This document shows positions 11,611 to 61,447 of a DNA stretch of 61,447 bases, piece by piece. Location of the stretch: positions 1-61,447 of the forward strand of contig JAADJB010000036.1 of NCBI GenBank assembly GCA_013151035.1, given 5' to 3'. Source of the DNA: Gammaproteobacteria bacterium (GTDB taxonomy: Bacteria; Pseudomonadota; Gammaproteobacteria; JAADJB01). Positions within the stretch are counted from its first letter, which is position 1. The number at the start of each line of letters is the position of its first letter. Made by a program: the position numbers and the translations under genes. The notes beneath the pieces were generated by a model. That model was not told where the DNA came from. It was given only the letters and a program-made list of their open reading frames with translations, and did not search any database.

Positions 11611-12222
11611 ATGTCTATTAATCGTTCTATAAAAGCACTAGCAGTACTCAGCAGCCTCTTATTTTCAACGGTTATCAATGCCTCATTGGTAACATTTGAT
11701 GTTTATGCAAAAGCAAATAGTTCATCGAGTAATAATGGGGTGAATACCGGTTTAAGTTTTAATTCTGGCGACCTCATTAACGGATCAGTTGACCCGAATG
11801 ATTTGTGGAATGCCGGGCCATTACCCCGCTGGTCAAATGCCGATGGTCTTATCACTAATGTGTATGCGACAGGCAGCGATGATTCAGGTGAAACAGCAGG
11901 CACACAAATCGGGATGCTTTTTGGTAATATGACTCAAAGTGGTTTATCGGCCCCTTATGGTTCTCTTGTGGGCGAAATAAATAATATATTCTTCGTGTTG
12001 GGCACTAGCTTTAATGTGGCTGCACCTGATTCCGGAGTATTGTCTCTTTATTACTGGGACTCTAATGCCTATGATAACGCTGAATTTATCTCTGTATCCA
12101 TTGATAATGGATTATCGGCCGTTCCAGTGCCAGCTGCTATCTGGTTATTAAGCTCTGGTTTAATCGGTCTTATTGGAATGGGAAGAAAGCCCTCTAAAAG
12201 AGGTTCGACATCTGTCAAGTAA
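11611..12222 (+). CDS. PEP-CTERM sorting domain protein
   Basis: This 203-residue secreted protein has an N-terminal signal peptide (MSINRSIKALAVLSSLLFST, cleaved near INAS). A Ser/Asn/Gly-rich exported domain of unknown function follows. The C-terminal PEP-CTERM signal is VPVPAAIWLLSSGLIGLIG followed by basic residues. Such proteins are processed at the inner membrane by exosortase and are often tied to exopolysaccharide or floc formation. A strong sigma-54 promoter precedes it, with paired GTGTAAAAAA sites further upstream. AAGG before the ATG supports the start. No exosortase gene lies in the window. Confidence 0.85.
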   Translation: MSINRSIKALAVLSSLLFSTVINASLVTFDVYAKANSSSSNNGVNTGLSFNSGDLINGSVDPNDLWNAGPLPRWSNADGLITNVYATGSDDSGETAGTQIGMLFGNMTQSGLSAPYGSLVGEINNIFFVLGTSFNVAAPDSGVLSLYYWDSNAYDNAEFISVSIDNGLSAVPVPAAIWLLSSGLIGLIGMGRKPSKRGSTSVK

Positions 12223-17126: not shown

Positions 17127-17903
17127 TTACGAAGCACCCCAGGCCTCAAGAAACTCAGTAAAATGAGGCGCATCACTAGCATGTAATAATTCTTTCAACA
17201 AATCACATTCTCGATCATAACCATCCTGATCCAGATTACCGCGTATCATCTCAAAACGCAGATAAACCAGATAGGTATTCAATACATCGGTTTCACAATA
17301 ATCACGAATTTCATCAATCATCCCATCCTGATAATAATCCCACACCTTAGCCCCACTCATCCCCATCTTGCCAGGGAATCCCAACATGCTAGCAATCTCA
17401 TCCAGGCGCACATTGGCACGCGGCTGATAGCCTGCCAGCACCTCCATCAAATCGGTATGACGAGCATGGTAACGACTAAGATAATTATTCCACTTAAAAT
17501 CCCGATCATTCTCACCCTGATCCCAGTAACGAGGACAAGATACCCCGTGTAACAAGGCACGATAATGAATCACCGGCAAATCAAAACCACTGCCATTCCA
17601 TGACACCAGGGTCGGTACATAACGATCCAGCCCTTTAAAAAAGCGTTCCAGCAATTCCTTTTCCGAGGAATCCGCATCACCCAATGACCAGACCTTAACA
17701 CCATCATCCGAACGCAACACCGCCGAGATAGCCACAATACGTTGCAAGTGATGGCGCAGAAAATCACTGCCCCCGGTCTCTTCACGTCGCTTATGAAACA
17801 TAATTTCAGCGACATCCTTATCCGCCAACCCCTCAAGTTCATGCAAACGACAACCCGATGCCACATCCGGCACCGTCTCAATATCAAACACTAAAGTATT
17901 CAT
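17127..17903 (-). CDS. PolB-like DEDDy 3'-5' exonuclease
   Basis: This 258-residue protein opens with MNTLVFDIETVPD, the ExoI motif of DEDD exonucleases (Asp7, Glu9). ExoII is visible in LVSWNGSGFDLPVIHYRAL. ExoIII is YCETDVLNTYLVYLRFEM, with the tyrosine/aspartate arrangement of the DEDDy class. It fits the predicted 3'-5' exonuclease related to the exonuclease domain of B-family polymerases, and its substrate is not established. The start overlaps the cysM stop by four bases. Confidence 0.88.
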   Translation of the reverse strand: MNTLVFDIETVPDVASGCRLHELEGLADKDVAEIMFHKRREETGGSDFLRHHLQRIVAISAVLRSDDGVKVWSLGDADSSEKELLERFFKGLDRYVPTLVSWNGSGFDLPVIHYRALLHGVSCPRYWDQGENDRDFKWNNYLSRYHARHTDLMEVLAGYQPRANVRLDEIASMLGFPGKMGMSGAKVWDYYQDGMIDEIRDYCETDVLNTYLVYLRFEMIRGNLDQDGYDRECDLLKELLHASDAPHFTEFLEAWGAS

Positions 17904-18790
17904 TCTGGAAACACACCTGTTGATAGATAACGATCACCACGATCACAGATAATCACCACGATAACCGCATCCGGTTCTCGCCTCGCCACACGCAGAGCTG
18001 CTACCACCGCGCCACCCGACGAGATACCAGCAAAAATACCTTCCTTCTGTGCCAGTGCCCGCGTGGTATCCTCAGCCTCCTGCTGCCCCACATCAATCTG
18101 CTCATCCACCCGTTCATCCTGATAGATGCTCGGTAGATATTCCTTAGGCCAACGACGAATACCGGGGATTGCAGCACCCTCTTCCGGTTGTACACCGATG
18201 ACCTGTATTTTATTATTTTGTTCTTTCAGGTAACGTGAGACCCCCATGATGGTGCCGGTGGTTCCCATTGCACTAACAAAATGCGTAATCTCACCCTCGG
18301 TATCACGCCAGATCTCAGGCCCGGTACTTTCATAATGCGCCAGCGGATTATCCGGGTTGGAAAATTGATCCAGTACCAAACCCTTGCCCTCACGCGCATA
18401 TTGATCCGCCAGATCACGCGCACCCTCCATGCTCGCCTGTTGACTCACTAGCACAATCTCGGCACCAAAGGCACGCATTACCGCACGTCGTTCCACGCTC
18501 ATGTGTTCCGGCATAATCAGAATCAACTTGTAGCCACGAATCGCCGCCGCCATCGCCAGTGCAATCCCGGTGTTACCACTGGTTGCCTCGATCAGGGTAT
18601 CACCCGGATGAATATCACCGCGTAATTCAGCATGATGAATCATGCTCAATGCCGGTCGATCCTTGACCGAACCGGCTGGATTATTACCTTCAAGCTTAAC
18701 CAACACCGTTCCCATATCGTCAGTAACCAGACGTTGTAAGGCAACCAATGGGGTATTACCGACAAAATGATCCAGATGATGTATTTTCAT
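17900..18790 (-). CDS. cysM: Cysteine synthase B (O-acetylserine sulfhydrylase, CysM type)
   Basis: This 296-residue PLP enzyme makes cysteine from O-acetylserine and sulfide or thiosulfate. The PLP lysine is in NNPAGSVKDRPALSMI, the wording typical of CysM rather than CysK. Other signatures are EATSGNTGIALAMAAA (substrate loop), MGTTGTIMGVSRYL (phosphate loop) and GISSGGAVVAAL. CysM can use thiosulfate to form S-sulfocysteine, which fits the YedE and DsrEFH genes at the left end. It heads the cysM-exonuclease-rlmD run. Confidence 0.95.
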   Translation of the reverse strand: MKIHHLDHFVGNTPLVALQRLVTDDMGTVLVKLEGNNPAGSVKDRPALSMIHHAELRGDIHPGDTLIEATSGNTGIALAMAAAIRGYKLILIMPEHMSVERRAVMRAFGAEIVLVSQQASMEGARDLADQYAREGKGLVLDQFSNPDNPLAHYESTGPEIWRDTEGEITHFVSAMGTTGTIMGVSRYLKEQNNKIQVIGVQPEEGAAIPGIRRWPKEYLPSIYQDERVDEQIDVGQQEAEDTTRALAQKEGIFAGISSGGAVVAALRVARREPDAVIVVIICDRGDRYLSTGVFPE

Positions 18791-18895: not shown

Positions 18896-21004
18896 ATGAA
18901 AGAACCTATGTATAACAAACACCTACTATCTGCTATCACCCTGTTGCTGTCACAAAACGCCTTCAGCAACGAGCATGTTGATGACTTCGAAGATTACCTG
19001 ATGGATGAAATGCCCATCGTGCTTTCGGCTACCCGCCTGGCACAACCCAAAAGCGAGGCACCCGCAGCCATGACCATTATTGATCGTCGTATGATTGAAT
19101 CCAGTGGTGCTATCGAGATTGCAGAGTTATTTCGTCTGGTACCCGGCTTTCAGGTTGCCTATGCCAGTGGAGCCAATACTGGATATACCATGACCGTCAC
19201 CTATCATGGTTTTAGTGGTGAGCGTTCCAGTCGCACCCAGGTGCTGATTGATGGTCGTTCAGCTTATAGTGCAGCCGATGGTACTGTGGACTGGTTCAAC
19301 CTGCCGATCACCATTGATGATATCGAACGCATTGAAATAGTACGCGGACCCAATGGTGCCACCTTCGGTGCCAATGCCTTTATTGGCACTATCAACATCA
19401 TTACCAAGGATCCAAATGAATATAGCGGAACCGACTACATCGCCACTTATGGTAATAAAGGCATACGCGAGGGTACCATACGCAATCATTATCAATCAGA
19501 AAAACTTAATCTCCGTATTACCGCCAGAAGATCCATGGATACTGGTTTTGATAACACTCGCTTTCTAAAAAACCGCAACAACCCTGCATCTGGCTACGAA
19601 ACCTTTATCGCAAATGACCAGAAACGCACAACACTAATCAATACTCGTGGTGATTATGAGATTAATATAAACAACAAGATTGATTTTGGTATTAGCTATG
19701 TAGAGGGTTATCGCGCACAAGGCGCTAATGGTGATGCGAACTATATTCCAAATGACATGATTGCTCTACCCCATGACAGCAATACAATATTTCAACATGA
19801 ACATATACGCTGGACACACACTCGAGGGGATGAAGAAGAGATTAGCGTTCAATTTTTTCACTCCTATAATAACCGTAAGGAAATCGCCTATGATGTCTTT
19901 GCCAACTCGGGAAACCCAGGCTATATCGCAGCCTTTGGTAGTGATGCCATGCTTGATTATGGCAAAAAGGAACAACGTTACGAAGTTGAACTCCAACATA
20001 GTAAACGAATCAATGAAGACTACCGCCTGATATGGGGAACAAGCGCACGATTAGATCGTGTCAGCAGCCCCACATGGTTTGATCGTACAAGTGACATCAG
20101 AACATATCTGTATCGCATATATACTAATCAGGAATGGCATGCCAGTGACAAGATCCTGATCAATGCTGGTATCATGCTGGAACATAGCAGCCTTAGTGGT
20201 ACCGAGACGGCACCCAGGCTCGCCATCAACTATGCTGTTACCCCTAACCATAATATCCGGCTCGGTGCATCCAGGGCGGTTCGCCTGCCGAATATCTACG
20301 AGGCCTATGCTGCAGTACAACCACAGACTTATAACGGCATCATCATTACCCAGTTCCAAAAAAGCACAGGTAATATTCGTACAGAAAAGGTATCGTCTAT
20401 TGAACTGGGTTACCTATGGAATCAACCGTCCATTCATACCGAACTGGATGTCAGGATATTCCGTGACAAGATTACTGATTACATCAAACAGGGGGTCAAG
20501 GACAAAGGCCCCGCTGCAACCTGGGAATCCTATATCATGAATAGTCCCGGTATAATTATCAAAGGAATCGAATTCAGCCTGAATTATAAACCAAGCCGAT
20601 ATAGCTTAATCAATCTCAACCATGCCTACCTCAATGCCCGTGGTGCCTCAATTGATCGCTTTACCGATATTAATGACCCAGCAACCTATGCCTATGAAAC
20701 CGGTGATTACAGAAATGTCCCCACCCAGACCACCAGCCTGTTTGTCAGTCATCGACTAGCCAATCAATGGGATGTCAGTGCCATCTATTATCGTGTTAGT
20801 AATATGCGCTGGCAGGGTAATGGCGATGATATCCCGGGACAAGATCGACTGGATCTAAGGATATCCAAAAAATTTAAGCTGGCAGGTAACGATACCAGTG
20901 TCGCCATTACCGCTCAAAACATCCTGGGAGAATATGTAGGATTTGCAGATGGTTTCATCATGGATACCAAGGTTTTATTAAACCTTAAGTTACACTTGAA
21001 CTAA
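18896..21004 (+). CDS. TonB-dependent outer-membrane receptor
   Basis: This 702-residue protein has a signal peptide (MYNKHLLSAITLLLSQNAFS), a possible TonB box at MPIVLSATRL, and a plug domain at about 45-165 (EIAELFRLVPGFQV, QVLIDGRSAY, IERIEIVRGPNGATFGANAF). A 22-strand-type barrel rich in alternating aromatic residues follows. The ligand cannot be read from sequence. The second in-frame ATG at 18908 may be the true start, since it gives a cleaner signal peptide. A periplasmic binding protein and a hybrid kinase follow in the same direction, so the receptor may feed a sensing pathway. It is divergent from cysM. Confidence 0.92.
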   Translation: MKEPMYNKHLLSAITLLLSQNAFSNEHVDDFEDYLMDEMPIVLSATRLAQPKSEAPAAMTIIDRRMIESSGAIEIAELFRLVPGFQVAYASGANTGYTMTVTYHGFSGERSSRTQVLIDGRSAYSAADGTVDWFNLPITIDDIERIEIVRGPNGATFGANAFIGTINIITKDPNEYSGTDYIATYGNKGIREGTIRNHYQSEKLNLRITARRSMDTGFDNTRFLKNRNNPASGYETFIANDQKRTTLINTRGDYEININNKIDFGISYVEGYRAQGANGDANYIPNDMIALPHDSNTIFQHEHIRWTHTRGDEEEISVQFFHSYNNRKEIAYDVFANSGNPGYIAAFGSDAMLDYGKKEQRYEVELQHSKRINEDYRLIWGTSARLDRVSSPTWFDRTSDIRTYLYRIYTNQEWHASDKILINAGIMLEHSSLSGTETAPRLAINYAVTPNHNIRLGASRAVRLPNIYEAYAAVQPQTYNGIIITQFQKSTGNIRTEKVSSIELGYLWNQPSIHTELDVRIFRDKITDYIKQGVKDKGPAATWESYIMNSPGIIIKGIEFSLNYKPSRYSLINLNHAYLNARGASIDRFTDINDPATYAYETGDYRNVPTQTTSLFVSHRLANQWDVSAIYYRVSNMRWQGNGDDIPGQDRLDLRISKKFKLAGNDTSVAITAQNILGEYVGFADGFIMDTKVLLNLKLHLN

Positions 21005-21070
21005 CCGATAGTATGAAGCATTAATTAATATGTTTTTAACACATGGAATTATTTGTCTTGCAGGATGCTC

Positions 21071-22009
21071 ATGTTAACGTCTATTAGTCGGCTATTACTC
21101 CTCTCAATCGGGCTGTTATTGGCAACCATGGCTCAGGGTAGCGAGGCAATAAAAACCTGTGCTATTACCATCATCTTCAACCCGCAAAACGAGACCCATC
21201 AAAGCGTACAGCAGGCCTTAAACAATGGACTGCAACAAGAACAGAACACACGATGTCTCATCACAGCCATTGATTACACCCACAATCAAAAACAAACAAT
21301 AACCCGAAATCAGGACCTGGTTGTTAGCATTGGCTCAAAGGCATCCGAATGGGCTATTAACAAAGTCAACCAGTCCCCGTTACTGGCAATCATGGTATCG
21401 AGTGAAAAATACAAGTCCCTCAGCACGCGTTTTCCCGGTCAATTATCAGCCATTGTTATTGACCAGCCCATTGCTCGTTACTACCAGCTTATCAAGGCAA
21501 GCATGCCCGATATTCAACATGTCAATACGGTATTCGGATCACATTCCAGAAAACGCAAACCAGAGATGGTCGAACAAGCAAAAAACTATGCCATAAAACT
21601 TCATTCCTATACATTATCGACACATGATACGGTGCTGGATGCCTTAAACCGCATTATGACGAAATATAATAGTGTGTTACTGACCCTGCCGGATCCTGCT
21701 GTAATCAATAGGCGTAGCATACGTTCCATATTGTTACACGCCTATCACAAAAATACCCCGGTATTCGGTTTCTCCAGTAATTATGTCCGTGCCGGTGCCA
21801 TTGCCGCTGTATTCACTACCCCAGATCAATTTGGACGGGAGGCCGCAGATGAAATTATCCTGCGTGCAGATAACAAACAGTTTTCCAGTACACAAATGAA
21901 ATACCCATCACGATACGACATCAAAACCAACACACGCGTAATTAAATCCATGAATCTGGTTCTCCCTTCCTTAGCCGAAATTCGTAAACGAATGCGAGCA
22001 CAACCATGA
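21071..22009 (+). CDS. ABC-type periplasmic substrate-binding protein (TrpX/YtfQ-like fold)
   Basis: This 312-residue protein has a signal peptide (MLTSISRLLLLSIGLLLATM, cleaved near AQGSEA). The body resembles the ABC_sub_bind family: a repeated Rossmann-like layout with LVVSIGSKASEWAI, the hinge region around DIQHVNTVFGSHSRKRKPEM, and NTPVFGFSSNYVRAGAIAAVF near the end. The ATG at 21071 has AGGA five bases upstream. No permease or ATPase genes accompany it. Instead its stop overlaps the start of a hybrid histidine kinase by four bases, so it probably presents a ligand to the kinase's periplasmic domain. Confidence 0.8.
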   Translation: MLTSISRLLLLSIGLLLATMAQGSEAIKTCAITIIFNPQNETHQSVQQALNNGLQQEQNTRCLITAIDYTHNQKQTITRNQDLVVSIGSKASEWAINKVNQSPLLAIMVSSEKYKSLSTRFPGQLSAIVIDQPIARYYQLIKASMPDIQHVNTVFGSHSRKRKPEMVEQAKNYAIKLHSYTLSTHDTVLDALNRIMTKYNSVLLTLPDPAVINRRSIRSILLHAYHKNTPVFGFSSNYVRAGAIAAVFTTPDQFGREAADEIILRADNKQFSSTQMKYPSRYDIKTNTRVIKSMNLVLPSLAEIRKRMRAQP

Positions 22010-24699
22010 TTAAGGGCATACGTGAACGGGTACTTATCCTCACCCTTATCCCTACCATCGTAGCCTCGATGGTGCTTTCTGTATTCTTTGTTTATGCACA
22101 GATCGAGGATTTCAATCAATCATTACACTTTCATGGACAGGCGATTGCCAACCAACTCGCACCCGCCAGTGAATACGGCGTATTTTCCGGCAATCTAAAG
22201 GTACTACAATCATTGGCGAATAATGCAGTAAAAGAAGCCGATGTTTACTCCATCATCATCAAGGACATTGATAATAATATCCTGGCAAAAACCATCAATC
22301 CTCAGAGCAAAAACAACCTTGAGTTACGCAAGAAACTACTCTTTAGTGCCTCAATATTACAAAGCGAGATTGTTATAAATGATCTCGGCCAGGACTCCAC
22401 GCCCCGGACAGAGCCAGCTAGAAATATACTCGGCACCGTCAATGTGCAACTGGACCATAGTCGTGCCAGCCAAGAGGTTCAGGAAATCATTATCAACAGC
22501 ATCATAATCATTATTATTGCACTGCTGATCAGCACACTGATTGGTCTCAGATTTGGTCACCACATTATTCAGCCAATCCTGGACATGACACACGGCATTG
22601 AAAAAATCGGCAAGGGTAAGCTATCAACCCGAATTAATGCCATTTCCAAAGGAGAACTTGGCAGACTGGAAAAAGGCATCAATGCCATGGCCGACAGCAT
22701 GGAGTCATCACGACGACAACTCATGGACGAAGTCTCTGAGGCAACATCAGATCTACGAGAGACACTAGAAGCGGTAGAGATACAAAATGTTGAACTCTCG
22801 TTAACCCGCAAACAGGCACGACTGGCCAATAAAACAAAATCCGAATTTGTTGCTAATGTTAGTCATGAACTAAGAACCCCGATGAATGGCATCATTGGTT
22901 TTGGAAAATTGTTATTACATAGTCCTTTAAACAAAGAACAAAAAGATTACGTCGAAACCATCCTGAAATCATCGACCAACCTGTTAAGTATCGTTAACAA
23001 CCTGCTGGATTTTTCAAGGATTGAATCCGGGAAAATAGCCGTGGATATCCAAGCTTTTGATTTAAGGGAATGTCTGGAAGAAGGGATTAAATTACTGGCT
23101 CCCGAGGCGCATAAAAAGAATCTTGAACTGAGCCTCCTCATCTACAACGATGTCAACACCATGGTGTTCGGTGATGCCTTGCAGCTACAACAGGTGATTA
23201 TTAATCTAGTTTCAAATGCCATTAAATTCACAGATCAAGGTTCTGTCATCATCCGCGTCATGCTGGAGGATGAAGACAAGAAATATATCTCATTACGCAT
23301 TACCGTCACCGATACCGGAATCGGTCTGAACAATGAAAAAAAGGATCTTTTATTTGAAGCCTTTAGCCAGGAAGACACCTCAATCACCCGAAAATACGGT
23401 GGTACTGGATTAGGTCTATCCATCTCACGCAAACTTATGCAATTAATGGGTGGTCAAATCGGTATCAATAGTGACCAGGACAAGGGTGCAAGTTTCTGGG
23501 TTACACTAAAATTACAGAAAAACCCCGCTGGACATACACCGTCCACACATCCGTTAGACGGCATGAATGCCCTACTCTACGAATCGATGAACATATCACA
23601 GCTCGCCACGCAACATCTGCTTGATATGTTTGGCCTCAAGACCACTATTGCCAATAGTCCCGAACAATTAGCCAGGCTACTGGAAAACAATCAATATGAT
23701 ATTCTGTTAATCGATATTAATCATCATGAACGCATGGAATCCCATGATAAATATTACCGCTATAACAGTGGCAGAATTATACCTGCTATCATTATCAGCA
23801 ATCATATTGAAGACCCGCAACAGTCTATATTACGAAATAAAGCCTTCACTCAATTAATCACCCGACCAGCCAGCAAAAACAATCTGATTACCGCCTTATA
23901 TAAATTACTAGGCATCAATAGTAACGAGATAAAAACGCAGAATAGCCATAAAGACATTGATCATGAAGAACAAAAACATATACTCCACGGTATTAATATA
24001 TTACTGGTTGACGACAATGAGATTAATCGCAAACTAATCACTATACAACTGAAACAAATGGATGCCCATATAGATATTGCCAGCAGTGGTGAAGAGGCTA
24101 TTCAGCAATGCAACAAAAACCAATATCATCTTATCCTGATGGATATTCACATGCCCGGAATGAGCGGCCCGGATACAACTAAGGTGATTCGTAGTCATAG
24201 CTCAATAAACAGCAAGACTCCTGTTATCGCCCTGACCGCCAATGCCATCCCTGAGAAACGAGCAGAATGGTTCTCCGTCGGGATGATTGATTGCCTGATA
24301 AAGCCAGTATCGAATGAAGACATGGTGGATACGATCCTAAGTCATATTAATATTAATATTAATACTGATACTGATACTGATACTGATAATCAACCCGTCA
24401 CTAAAATAATAGATAAAAATAACGCAGAAAAACCAACAACACTGGATCTGAAAAAAATGTTGTTCGATGAGGTTAAAAGGCTATTCCCCCTGATCGAGAA
24501 AAGCTATCAATCAAGAGACTATGATGAGATGCAGTCGCTAGCACACACACTCAATGGTGCAGCAGCCTATTGCCAGGCAGAGCAATTAAGAGTAGTCGCA
24601 AAACAACTGGAAAACGATATTCATTCAGCAGACCAACAAGCCATCAAACGATCCTTTGATGCCCTTGCTAACCTGGTTAACTCGTCATTCCGGATGTAA
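22006..24699 (+). CDS. BarA-like hybrid sensor histidine kinase
   Basis: This 897-residue kinase has one membrane helix near the N-terminus, a periplasmic domain to about residue 165, a second helix (SIIIIIIALLISTLIG), HAMP, and HisKA with NVSHELRTPMNGIIGFGKLL. The HATPase region shows NLVSNAIKFT, DTGIGL and GGTGLGLSISRKLMQLMGG. A degenerate receiver domain (about 515-640), a complete receiver (ILLVDDNEINRKL, LILMDIHMPGMSG, ALTANA) and a C-terminal HPt domain (SLAHTLNGAAAYCQAEQL) follow. This is the tripartite BarA/GacS layout, but the preceding overlapping binding-protein gene suggests a dedicated input. A hexanucleotide ACTGAT repeat lies between the second receiver and HPt. Confidence 0.93.
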   Translation: MIKGIRERVLILTLIPTIVASMVLSVFFVYAQIEDFNQSLHFHGQAIANQLAPASEYGVFSGNLKVLQSLANNAVKEADVYSIIIKDIDNNILAKTINPQSKNNLELRKKLLFSASILQSEIVINDLGQDSTPRTEPARNILGTVNVQLDHSRASQEVQEIIINSIIIIIIALLISTLIGLRFGHHIIQPILDMTHGIEKIGKGKLSTRINAISKGELGRLEKGINAMADSMESSRRQLMDEVSEATSDLRETLEAVEIQNVELSLTRKQARLANKTKSEFVANVSHELRTPMNGIIGFGKLLLHSPLNKEQKDYVETILKSSTNLLSIVNNLLDFSRIESGKIAVDIQAFDLRECLEEGIKLLAPEAHKKNLELSLLIYNDVNTMVFGDALQLQQVIINLVSNAIKFTDQGSVIIRVMLEDEDKKYISLRITVTDTGIGLNNEKKDLLFEAFSQEDTSITRKYGGTGLGLSISRKLMQLMGGQIGINSDQDKGASFWVTLKLQKNPAGHTPSTHPLDGMNALLYESMNISQLATQHLLDMFGLKTTIANSPEQLARLLENNQYDILLIDINHHERMESHDKYYRYNSGRIIPAIIISNHIEDPQQSILRNKAFTQLITRPASKNNLITALYKLLGINSNEIKTQNSHKDIDHEEQKHILHGINILLVDDNEINRKLITIQLKQMDAHIDIASSGEEAIQQCNKNQYHLILMDIHMPGMSGPDTTKVIRSHSSINSKTPVIALTANAIPEKRAEWFSVGMIDCLIKPVSNEDMVDTILSHINININTDTDTDTDNQPVTKIIDKNNAEKPTTLDLKKMLFDEVKRLFPLIEKSYQSRDYDEMQSLAHTLNGAAAYCQAEQLRVVAKQLENDIHSADQQAIKRSFDALANLVNSSFRM

Positions 24700-24710: not shown

Positions 24711-25082
24711 TCACTCACAGACAACAAAAGCTAATGCGTATTCTCTTTCATCGCTGATACTCAAATGAATTTTATTCACCTCCAGATGATTGGATATATC
24801 CTCGGCCACTCCGCTTAATCGCAGTTCCGGCTTACCCTTAGCATCATGGATAATACTGATATCCGCATAATGTATTCCTTGTGAAAAACCAGTACCCAGA
24901 GCCTTAACTGTGGCCTCTTTAGCGGCAAAGCGTTTAGCCAGGAAATGAACCGGGTGTTGCATTTGATAATATTCAGACAGCTCATGCTGTGACAGTATCT
25001 TTTGTGCGAAGCGTTGTTGAAAACGTTGGTGTATCTGACGAATCCGCTCGACACTCACAATATCGGTACCGATACCAATCAA
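24711..25082 (-). CDS. acpS: Holo-[acyl-carrier-protein] synthase
   Basis: This 123-residue AcpS transfers 4'-phosphopantetheine from CoA to apo-ACP. The signatures are IGIGTDIVSVERI at the start and RFAAKEATVKALGTGFSQGI in the middle (metal-binding Asp and Glu). The start codon appears to be TTG at 25082, with AGGTG just upstream inside the end of pdxJ. It is the last gene of the conserved recO-pdxJ-acpS run. Confidence 0.95.
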   Translation of the reverse strand: MIGIGTDIVSVERIRQIHQRFQQRFAQKILSQHELSEYYQMQHPVHFLAKRFAAKEATVKALGTGFSQGIHYADISIIHDAKGKPELRLSGVAEDISNHLEVNKIHLSISDEREYALAFVVCE

Positions 25083-25084
25083 GG

Positions 25085-25828
25085 CTACACCTGTCTCGCT
25101 GTCTGTATCAGGGTCTTCATCTCACTCACGGCCGATTGCAGCCCCGTAAACAGGGCGCGCGCAATAATAGCATGCCCAATATTCAGCTCACGCACCTCAT
25201 CAATAACTGCAATCGCCTGAACATTCTGATAATTCAAACCATGTCCGGCATGAACCCGGATACCTTCATTGTGGGCATAGCTGATATTTTCAATAATCAC
25301 ACCCAGTAAATGCTCCTGCTCCATTGAACTAGTGGCATCAGCAAAGTGACCGGTATGAATCTCGATACAGGGTGCCCCACATTCCAGCACCGCATCAATC
25401 TGTTTCCTGTCGGCATCAATAAATGGAGACACACGAATACCGGCATCCGCCAGACGCTGGCAAGCCGTTTTAATCGTCGCCCGTTGACCTGCAACATCCA
25501 GACCACCCTCTGTTGTCAATTCTTCACGACGCTCTGGCACCAGACAGCAATCTTCAGGTTTTAAGTTCTCGGCAATCGACAACATCTCATCGGTTACCGC
25601 CATCTCCAGATTCATACGTGTCAACAACACCTGTTTAATCAACGTAACATCACGTTCCTGAATATGTCGCCTGTCCTCGCGCAAATGCAAGGTCACGCTA
25701 TCGGCACCCGCCTGCTCAACCTCAATCGCAGCCTGTACCGGGTCGGGATAACGGGTTCCCCGTGCCTGTCGCAAGGTTGCCACATGATCAATGTTGACAC
25801 CTAACAAGATGGGTACGCTTTGATTCAT
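25085..25828 (-). CDS. pdxJ: Pyridoxine 5'-phosphate synthase
   Basis: This 247-residue TIM-barrel enzyme condenses 1-deoxyxylulose 5-phosphate with 3-amino-2-oxopropyl phosphate, the last step of de novo vitamin B6 synthesis. The opening [21 protein letters not shown], the motif [20 protein letters not shown], and [15 protein letters not shown] near residue 190 are diagnostic. It lies 19 bases downstream of recO and two bases upstream of acpS. Confidence 0.97.
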
Positions 25829-61359: not shown

Positions 61360-61447
61360 GTAGAGTAAGAAGCAGGACGTAGTCGCACTATTTCCCTGCT
61401 TCTCCTCCCCGAACCGTACGTGCACCTTTCAGCGCATACGGCTCTCC
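61360..61447 (-). mobile_element. Group II intron, 3' end (domains V and VI)
   Basis: On the minus strand a 34-nt domain V (61411-61444) begins GAGCCGTATGCG and ends CGTACGGTTC. It has the catalytic AGC, a GAAA tetraloop and a complementary stem. Domain VI follows (AAGCAGG pairing with CCTGCTT), and the intron ends CTCTAC at 61360, consistent with the usual terminal AY. Removal of the intron would restore an isoleucine-proline codon junction in the IS3 transposase. The ribozyme 5' part and any reverse transcriptase gene lie outside the window. Confidence 0.88.

Follow-up and report, generated by a model that had tools for sequence, protein, structure and literature searches.

We propose that three adjacent genes, encoding a TonB-dependent outer-membrane receptor, a PF04392 periplasmic binding protein and a BarA/GacS-type hybrid kinase, form one sensing cassette that feeds the BarA/GacS phosphorelay of their genome, and we judge this scheme, with the whole proposed route included, to be probable. 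The genes lie in a window of 61,447 nucleotides (the whole stretch of DNA analysed here), at the positions collected in Table 1. By analogy, our best reading is that the cassette would work as an input to Gac/Csr resembling LuxP-LuxQ and TorT-TorS, probably fed by the TonB receptor. It is widespread and no peculiarity of this genome, a point that the preliminary description of the locus had understated.

Table 1. Positions of the cassette genes, their parts and their conserved flanks in the window.
Feature	Position	Strand	Size and support
cysM, conserved flank	17900..18790	-	NF008735 528 bits
TonB-dependent outer-membrane receptor	18896..21004	+	702 aa; Pfam Plug 75.7 bits, TonB_dep_Rec beta-barrel 107.9 bits
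PF04392 ABC_sub_bind periplasmic binding protein	21053..22009	+	318 aa called from TTG; Pfam 51.2 bits
ATGA common to binding-protein stop and kinase start	22006..22009	+	sequence
BarA/GacS-type hybrid kinase	22006..24699	+	897 aa; full-length BarA-model match
Periplasmic sCache_4 sensor	22105..22470	+	aa 34-155; Pfam; model pLDDT 86.7
SEYGVFSGN, candidate docking site	22168..22194	+	aa 55-63, far end of long sensor helix
HAMP	22552..22704	+	aa 183-233; Pfam
HisKA and HATPase_c	22837..23517	+	aa 278-342, 389-504; Pfam
Receiver	23998..24336	+	aa 665-777
Hpt	24448..24669	+	aa 815-888; Pfam
acpS and pdxJ, conserved flank	24711..25828	-	

The receptor gene ends 48 bases before the binding-protein gene, and the stop codon of the latter shares four bases with the kinase start; this overlap makes translational coupling of binding protein and kinase likely. 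Both the overlap and the order of the three genes had been described before, and the sequence, the Pfam domains and the open reading frame list bear them out. As had also been stated, no ABC permease or ATPase gene adjoins the binding protein in that list. On one side the cassette is followed by cysM, an exonuclease-like ORF without an NCBIfam match and rlmD, and on the other by acpS, pdxJ and recO; these genes all lie on the minus strand, opposite to the cassette. The earlier suggestion that BarA/GacS kinases often lie between acpS and cysM in relatives agrees with what we found, the same rlmD/cysM/acpS/pdxJ neighbourhood surrounding solitary BarA-type kinases. An Rfam search over the window gave no riboswitch at the cassette; its sole match in the window is the end of a group II intron at the window edge (61360-61446). 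The genome (2.4 Mb in 54 contigs) is the only one of its own order in the compared set, and the comparisons below are class-wide, over 274 genomes.

The kinase is of the BarA type by anatomy, locus and tree, and lies below NCBI's strict BarA threshold. Pfam places its six domains in BarA/GacS order: sCache_4, HAMP, HisKA, HATPase_c, receiver and Hpt. Among the NCBIfam models BarA fits it best (681.3 bits over residues 4-875; the next, LetS, reaches 496), with a score below the 890-bit cut-off of the strict BarA equivalog PRK11107, which is passed in only 3 of the 274 class genomes. It is the only full-length BarA match of its genome; the next kinase matches it with 276.7 bits, in the core only. 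The earlier assignment to the BarA type is thus upheld by the full-length model match, by a place in the tree among solitary BarA-type kinases and by the shared locus. At E <= 0.1 (phmmer) the only PDB sequence relative of the sensor domain is a weak one, 5o7j (E 0.033), which we take to be the GacS sensor structure, and in a structure search the sensor model resembles the Cache/PAS sensors CitA, DcuS and DctB. The GacS sensor is the subject of PMC5595915 and PMC8639471. With BarA/UvrY of E. coli and GacS/GacA of Pseudomonas the system of this genome shares the full architecture, the locus, GacA, CsrA and a putative RsmX/Y-like RNA; it differs from them in having a binding protein and a TonB receptor tied to the kinase translationally or genetically.

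The product of the middle gene belongs to PF04392 but falls outside TrpX. Its 51.2 bits exceed the gathering score of the family (25.9), while with the TrpX model it scores 45 bits against a cut-off of 390 and it has no permease or ATPase partners; a later ATG start (21068 or 21074) is possible. The structure model (pLDDT 92.7) has the type I two-lobe fold, and Foldseek gives 3lkv, 3lft and 6hni/6hnj as its best matches, with VIA-align Z values of 24.6 (6hnj), 22.9 (3lkv) and 21.5 (3lft). LuxP and TorT are not among the best 50 structure matches, to which we give no weight. In fold the protein is thus like the PF04392 amino-acid binding proteins TrpX, CD0873 and the Vibrio cholerae protein of 3lkv, its best solved relatives, including the L-Trp-bound 3lft; it differs from them in lacking an ABC partner and in its family-specific motifs DQPxxR and DPxxxNR. 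Among its relatives, residues G94, D137-Q138-P139, R142, D214, P236, S241, Y244, A247-G248-A249 and N293 are near-invariant. Placed by secondary structure, they would sit at strand ends facing the cleft, as expected of a ligand site that has been kept.

A phmmer search with the binding protein (E <= 1e-8) found 58 places in 55 of the 274 class genomes, and all 57 other than its own were examined with their neighbourhoods. A script placed a histidine kinase or a GGDEF protein immediately after the binding protein, in the same orientation, at 45 of the 57, and inspection added L060, L068, L083 and L092 from the 12 at which it had found no partner, making 49 of 57. A TonB receptor lies directly upstream at 41 of 57. 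The three-gene order, whose conservation had been put forward as a check, is therefore widely kept. The receptor varies more than the binding protein: 16 of the 57 loci have no adjacent receptor. The commonest junction between binding protein and partner is the 4-base overlap, present as -4 in most relatives. Two loci are reordered, with the kinase before the binding protein (L066 without a TonB receptor, L071 with one); L072, L084 and L089 end at a contig edge; and L073, L077 and L082 have receptor and binding protein with no kinase or GGDEF gene adjoining. The kinase is read as two ORFs at L040 and L153, L092 (490+500 aa; 260+545 aa), through a frameshift, an assembly error or a true split.

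A scan of named genomes, made with a 10-row alignment subset, gave 48 loci, with Methylophilaceae, Methylobacillus, Thauera, Rhodocyclus and Aromatoleum as well as Granulosicoccus, Aliamphritea, Marinobacterium and Ectothiorhodospiraceae among the hosts. Loci of the Methylophilaceae and Rhodocyclales type often have as their output a GGDEF-EAL protein that shares the sCache_4-HAMP front of the kinase. The same binding protein and Cache-HAMP sensor thus drive diguanylate cyclase/phosphodiesterase outputs elsewhere, which suggests an exchangeable input module. A tblastn search of plasmids gave two weak Massilia matches only. Of additional note, genome G045 has a solitary BarA-type kinase at cysM-pdxJ and a cassette elsewhere that drives a GGDEF-EAL protein (L115, L054). 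There is also a parallel cassette, in which a TonB receptor is followed by a YfiR/DUF4154-like protein (L125:3258-3800, L134:3178-3720, L130:5711-6325) and a CHASE8-HAMP hybrid kinase; Pfam covers it at L125 and L134. Judged by titles and the starts of abstracts, the literature gave no published description of a cassette of TonB receptor, PF04392 protein and BarA-type kinase.

BarA-type kinases that have the binding protein and those that lack it appear to be orthologues. Counted by hand among the matches listed (down to 437.6 bits), there are 57 full-length BarA-type kinases (model start <= 12, end >= 780), 33 with an adjacent binding protein and 24 without; the neighbourhoods of all 24 were read. 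A tree was built from 78 kinases, 41 of them partner-bearing and 37 partnerless; the partner-bearing ones were drawn from the binding-protein search and reach lower BarA scores than the others. On it the presence of the partner must change 13 times, against 26.3 on average when the labels are shuffled, and at least 7 of the 13 changes are forced by well-supported branches. Sister kinases within one family can differ in having the partner (L045/L120, L093/L122). One or more of the six flank genes considered occur at 27 of the 41 loci with a binding protein and at 25 of the 37 without. The interleaved tree and the shared flank genes together indicate the same orthologous kinase in the same ancestral place, with and without the pair. 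As to whether the input was gained or lost, a two-state model on 58 tips (leaving out L125, and L066 and L127, which have no H-box pattern) fits gain only and loss only equally (lnL -29.88 and -30.21), on a tree in which the outgroup was not cleanly set apart.

Where both are present, binding protein and kinase appear to have travelled together. Their patristic distances correlate with r 0.73 over 41 loci (0 of 2000 permutations), and those of receptor and kinase with r 0.71 over 28. At the 23 loci that have cysM, the correlation is 0.77 for binding protein and kinase against 0.49 for cysM and kinase, and the partial correlation between binding protein and kinase is 0.70 (0 of 2000 permutations). 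This link is the strong part of the case; the TonB receptor is less constant.

The sensor itself may tell us where the two proteins meet. The motif [SA]E[YF]GVxSGN, a candidate docking site for the binding protein, ends the first helix of the sensor (residues 5-61 in the model), and would lie at the membrane-distal tip if residues 8-30 span the membrane. It was scored in all 78 kinases by an alignment-free rule, adopted because the first alignment had mis-extracted kinases with an extra domain, and is present in 34 of the 41 kinases with a binding protein against 4 of the 37 without; the Fisher value of 6e-11 ignores relatedness, and the rule was written after the alignments were seen. Misses include L060 and L066, which have over-long ORF starts, and one exception, L120, is sister to a kinase with a partner. 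When the tree is taken into account, six independent pairs give 3.6 of 6 in favour on average and none against, a non-significant result (median p 0.125). Among GGDEF proteins in the examined loci that have a window-like sensor, 15 of 18 carry the motif. Another of the four exceptions, the motif-bearing kinase L127:4243-6666, directly follows a TonB receptor and has no binding protein beside it; a complete pair of binding protein and kinase is found elsewhere in the same genome (L075).

The receptor consists of a signal peptide, a plug and a barrel, and its nearest solved structures are CirA, BtuB and FepA. Pfam at E <= 0.01 finds Plug and barrel alone, with no STN signalling domain. MPIVLSATR (19010..19036, + strand), read from the sequence, is a putative TonB box. 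As in FecA-type transducers, a TonB receptor is here tied to signalling; unlike them, this one has no N-terminal STN domain, and the signal would go via a soluble binding protein to a kinase and not to an anti-sigma factor.

GacA, CsrA and a candidate regulatory RNA, the parts expected of a Gac/Csr output, are found in this genome. A response regulator (L143:1977-2648) scores 301.9 bits with the UvrY/SirA/GacA model (cut-off 280), and its gene lies two genes before uvrC, itself named from sequence. CsrA is present, as in all 14 genomes tested. With the pattern TGTAAG-N6-CTTACA, which we assume for the GacA box, the 2.4 Mb contain one perfect box (C18:61824); only this one carries weight, because with up to 2 mismatches a reversed control pattern gives 64 matches against 35. 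An RNA-like stretch starts about 65 bases downstream of the box. It contains four GGA, one hairpin and a T-run (MFE -32.2 kcal/mol, folding z-score -3.62), and none of 5000 random 100-base pieces of the window equalled it in GGA count, T-run and energy together. It has no Rfam family, with one sub-threshold chance match, and is plausibly an RsmX/Y-like RNA. Two PEP/VPLPA-CTERM-like surface proteins, named from their C-terminal motif, are encoded at 11611-12222 of the window and at L147:1755-2414, the latter just downstream of the RNA-like stretch.

From these observations, we suggest the following route. A low-abundance molecule would, most likely, cross the outer membrane via the TonB receptor and be captured in the periplasm by the PF04392 binding protein. 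Since no ABC transporter is linked to it, the binding protein would act as a sensor subunit; from the distribution of the motif, it may dock on the tip of the Cache domain at [SA]E[YF]GVxSGN. As in the known Gac/Csr pathway, the conformational change would then run through HAMP to HisKA, receiver and Hpt and on to GacA. GacA would in turn switch the putative RsmX/Y-like RNA, which would titrate CsrA; GacA, CsrA and the candidate RNA are present in the genome, and their wiring is taken from the known pathway.

Solitary BarA/GacS kinases function without any binding protein. The window kinase could likewise sense alone via its Cache pocket, as in E. coli BarA or GacS, with the receptor and binding protein as co-expressed uptake or scavenging genes that make no contact with it. 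Acetate has been reported in the own Cache pocket of E. coli BarA (PMC8639471), 24 of the 57 BarA-type kinases among the matches listed stand at the same locus without a binding protein, and an sbp gene next to a kinase gene need not be functionally linked to it: two such pairs tested in P. aeruginosa showed no interaction (PMC11113362). We nevertheless find sensing by the kinase alone unlikely: it leaves the binding protein without a transport outlet, as there is neither permease nor ATPase, the trees of binding protein and kinase agree better than those of the neighbour cysM and the kinase, and the sensor motif tracks the partner across two different outputs. Another scheme is suggested by the parallel cassettes of related genomes (L125 and L134), which have the same three-layer layout of TonB receptor, periplasmic partner (here DUF4154) and kinase and differ in the periplasmic partner and the sensor domain (here CHASE8). 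In the manner of YfiR on YfiN, the PF04392 protein could inhibit the kinase or regulate it according to the state of the envelope, instead of carrying a ligand, with the TonB receptor sensing the outer membrane or giving a redox or metal cue. A two-lobe cleft fold with near-invariant residues at strand ends looks more like a kept ligand site, and we hold this scheme to be improbable.

A binding protein with no transporter genes beside it can work with permeases in trans, and an ordinary transporter subunit served by an unlinked ABC permease and ATPase must be considered as well. As a control, we took 20 PF04392 loci outside the window family, the strongest by score plus a few lower: 13 have the ABC ATPase signature LSGG[QEM], and in 10 it adjoins the binding protein together with a permease-sized ORF. 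Several other control loci adjoin kinases or GGDEF proteins, so that other PF04392 groups may signal too. In the window family the signature occurs in 1 of 57 neighbourhoods, non-adjacent there, and a linked permease in none of the 57, which goes against the constant pairing with transporter genes that had earlier been named as a ground for rejecting the idea. As the window protein is moreover the sole PF04392 protein found in its genome, a role as a transporter subunit seems very improbable. We therefore prefer the sensing cassette described above. Like LuxP-LuxQ, TorT-TorS and XylFII-LytS, it sets a type I periplasmic binding protein next to a sensor kinase, the type I fold and the conserved gene adjacency both being found for the window protein. 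In those systems, structures have established the complex that the two proteins form (PMC6321045). The cassette differs from them in the PF04392/TrpX-like family, the BarA-type single Cache and the added TonB receptor.

How GacS/BarA kinases are activated is a decades-old open question. The 2020 review "The Evanescent GacS Signal" states that the GacS ligand is not known, and a search of its text for TonB gave no match (PMC7695008). Among the matches listed, most full-length BarA-type kinases (33 of 57) come with a binding protein of their own, which is open to purification and screening; the question of the GacS/BarA signal thus becomes one of a ligand screen and a binding test, for which the motif predicts a contact site. 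It is also conceivable, though we think it less likely than not, that the pair of TonB receptor and binding protein is the ancestral GacS/BarA input, lost in the solitary kinases of model organisms, and that the sensor tip is a dock shared by phosphorelay and c-di-GMP outputs. If this were true, the "missing signal" of GacS/BarA would be explained by the loss of the subunit that binds the ligand. The swapped c-di-GMP outputs, in turn, predict that the same class of ligand may govern two global lifestyle switches.
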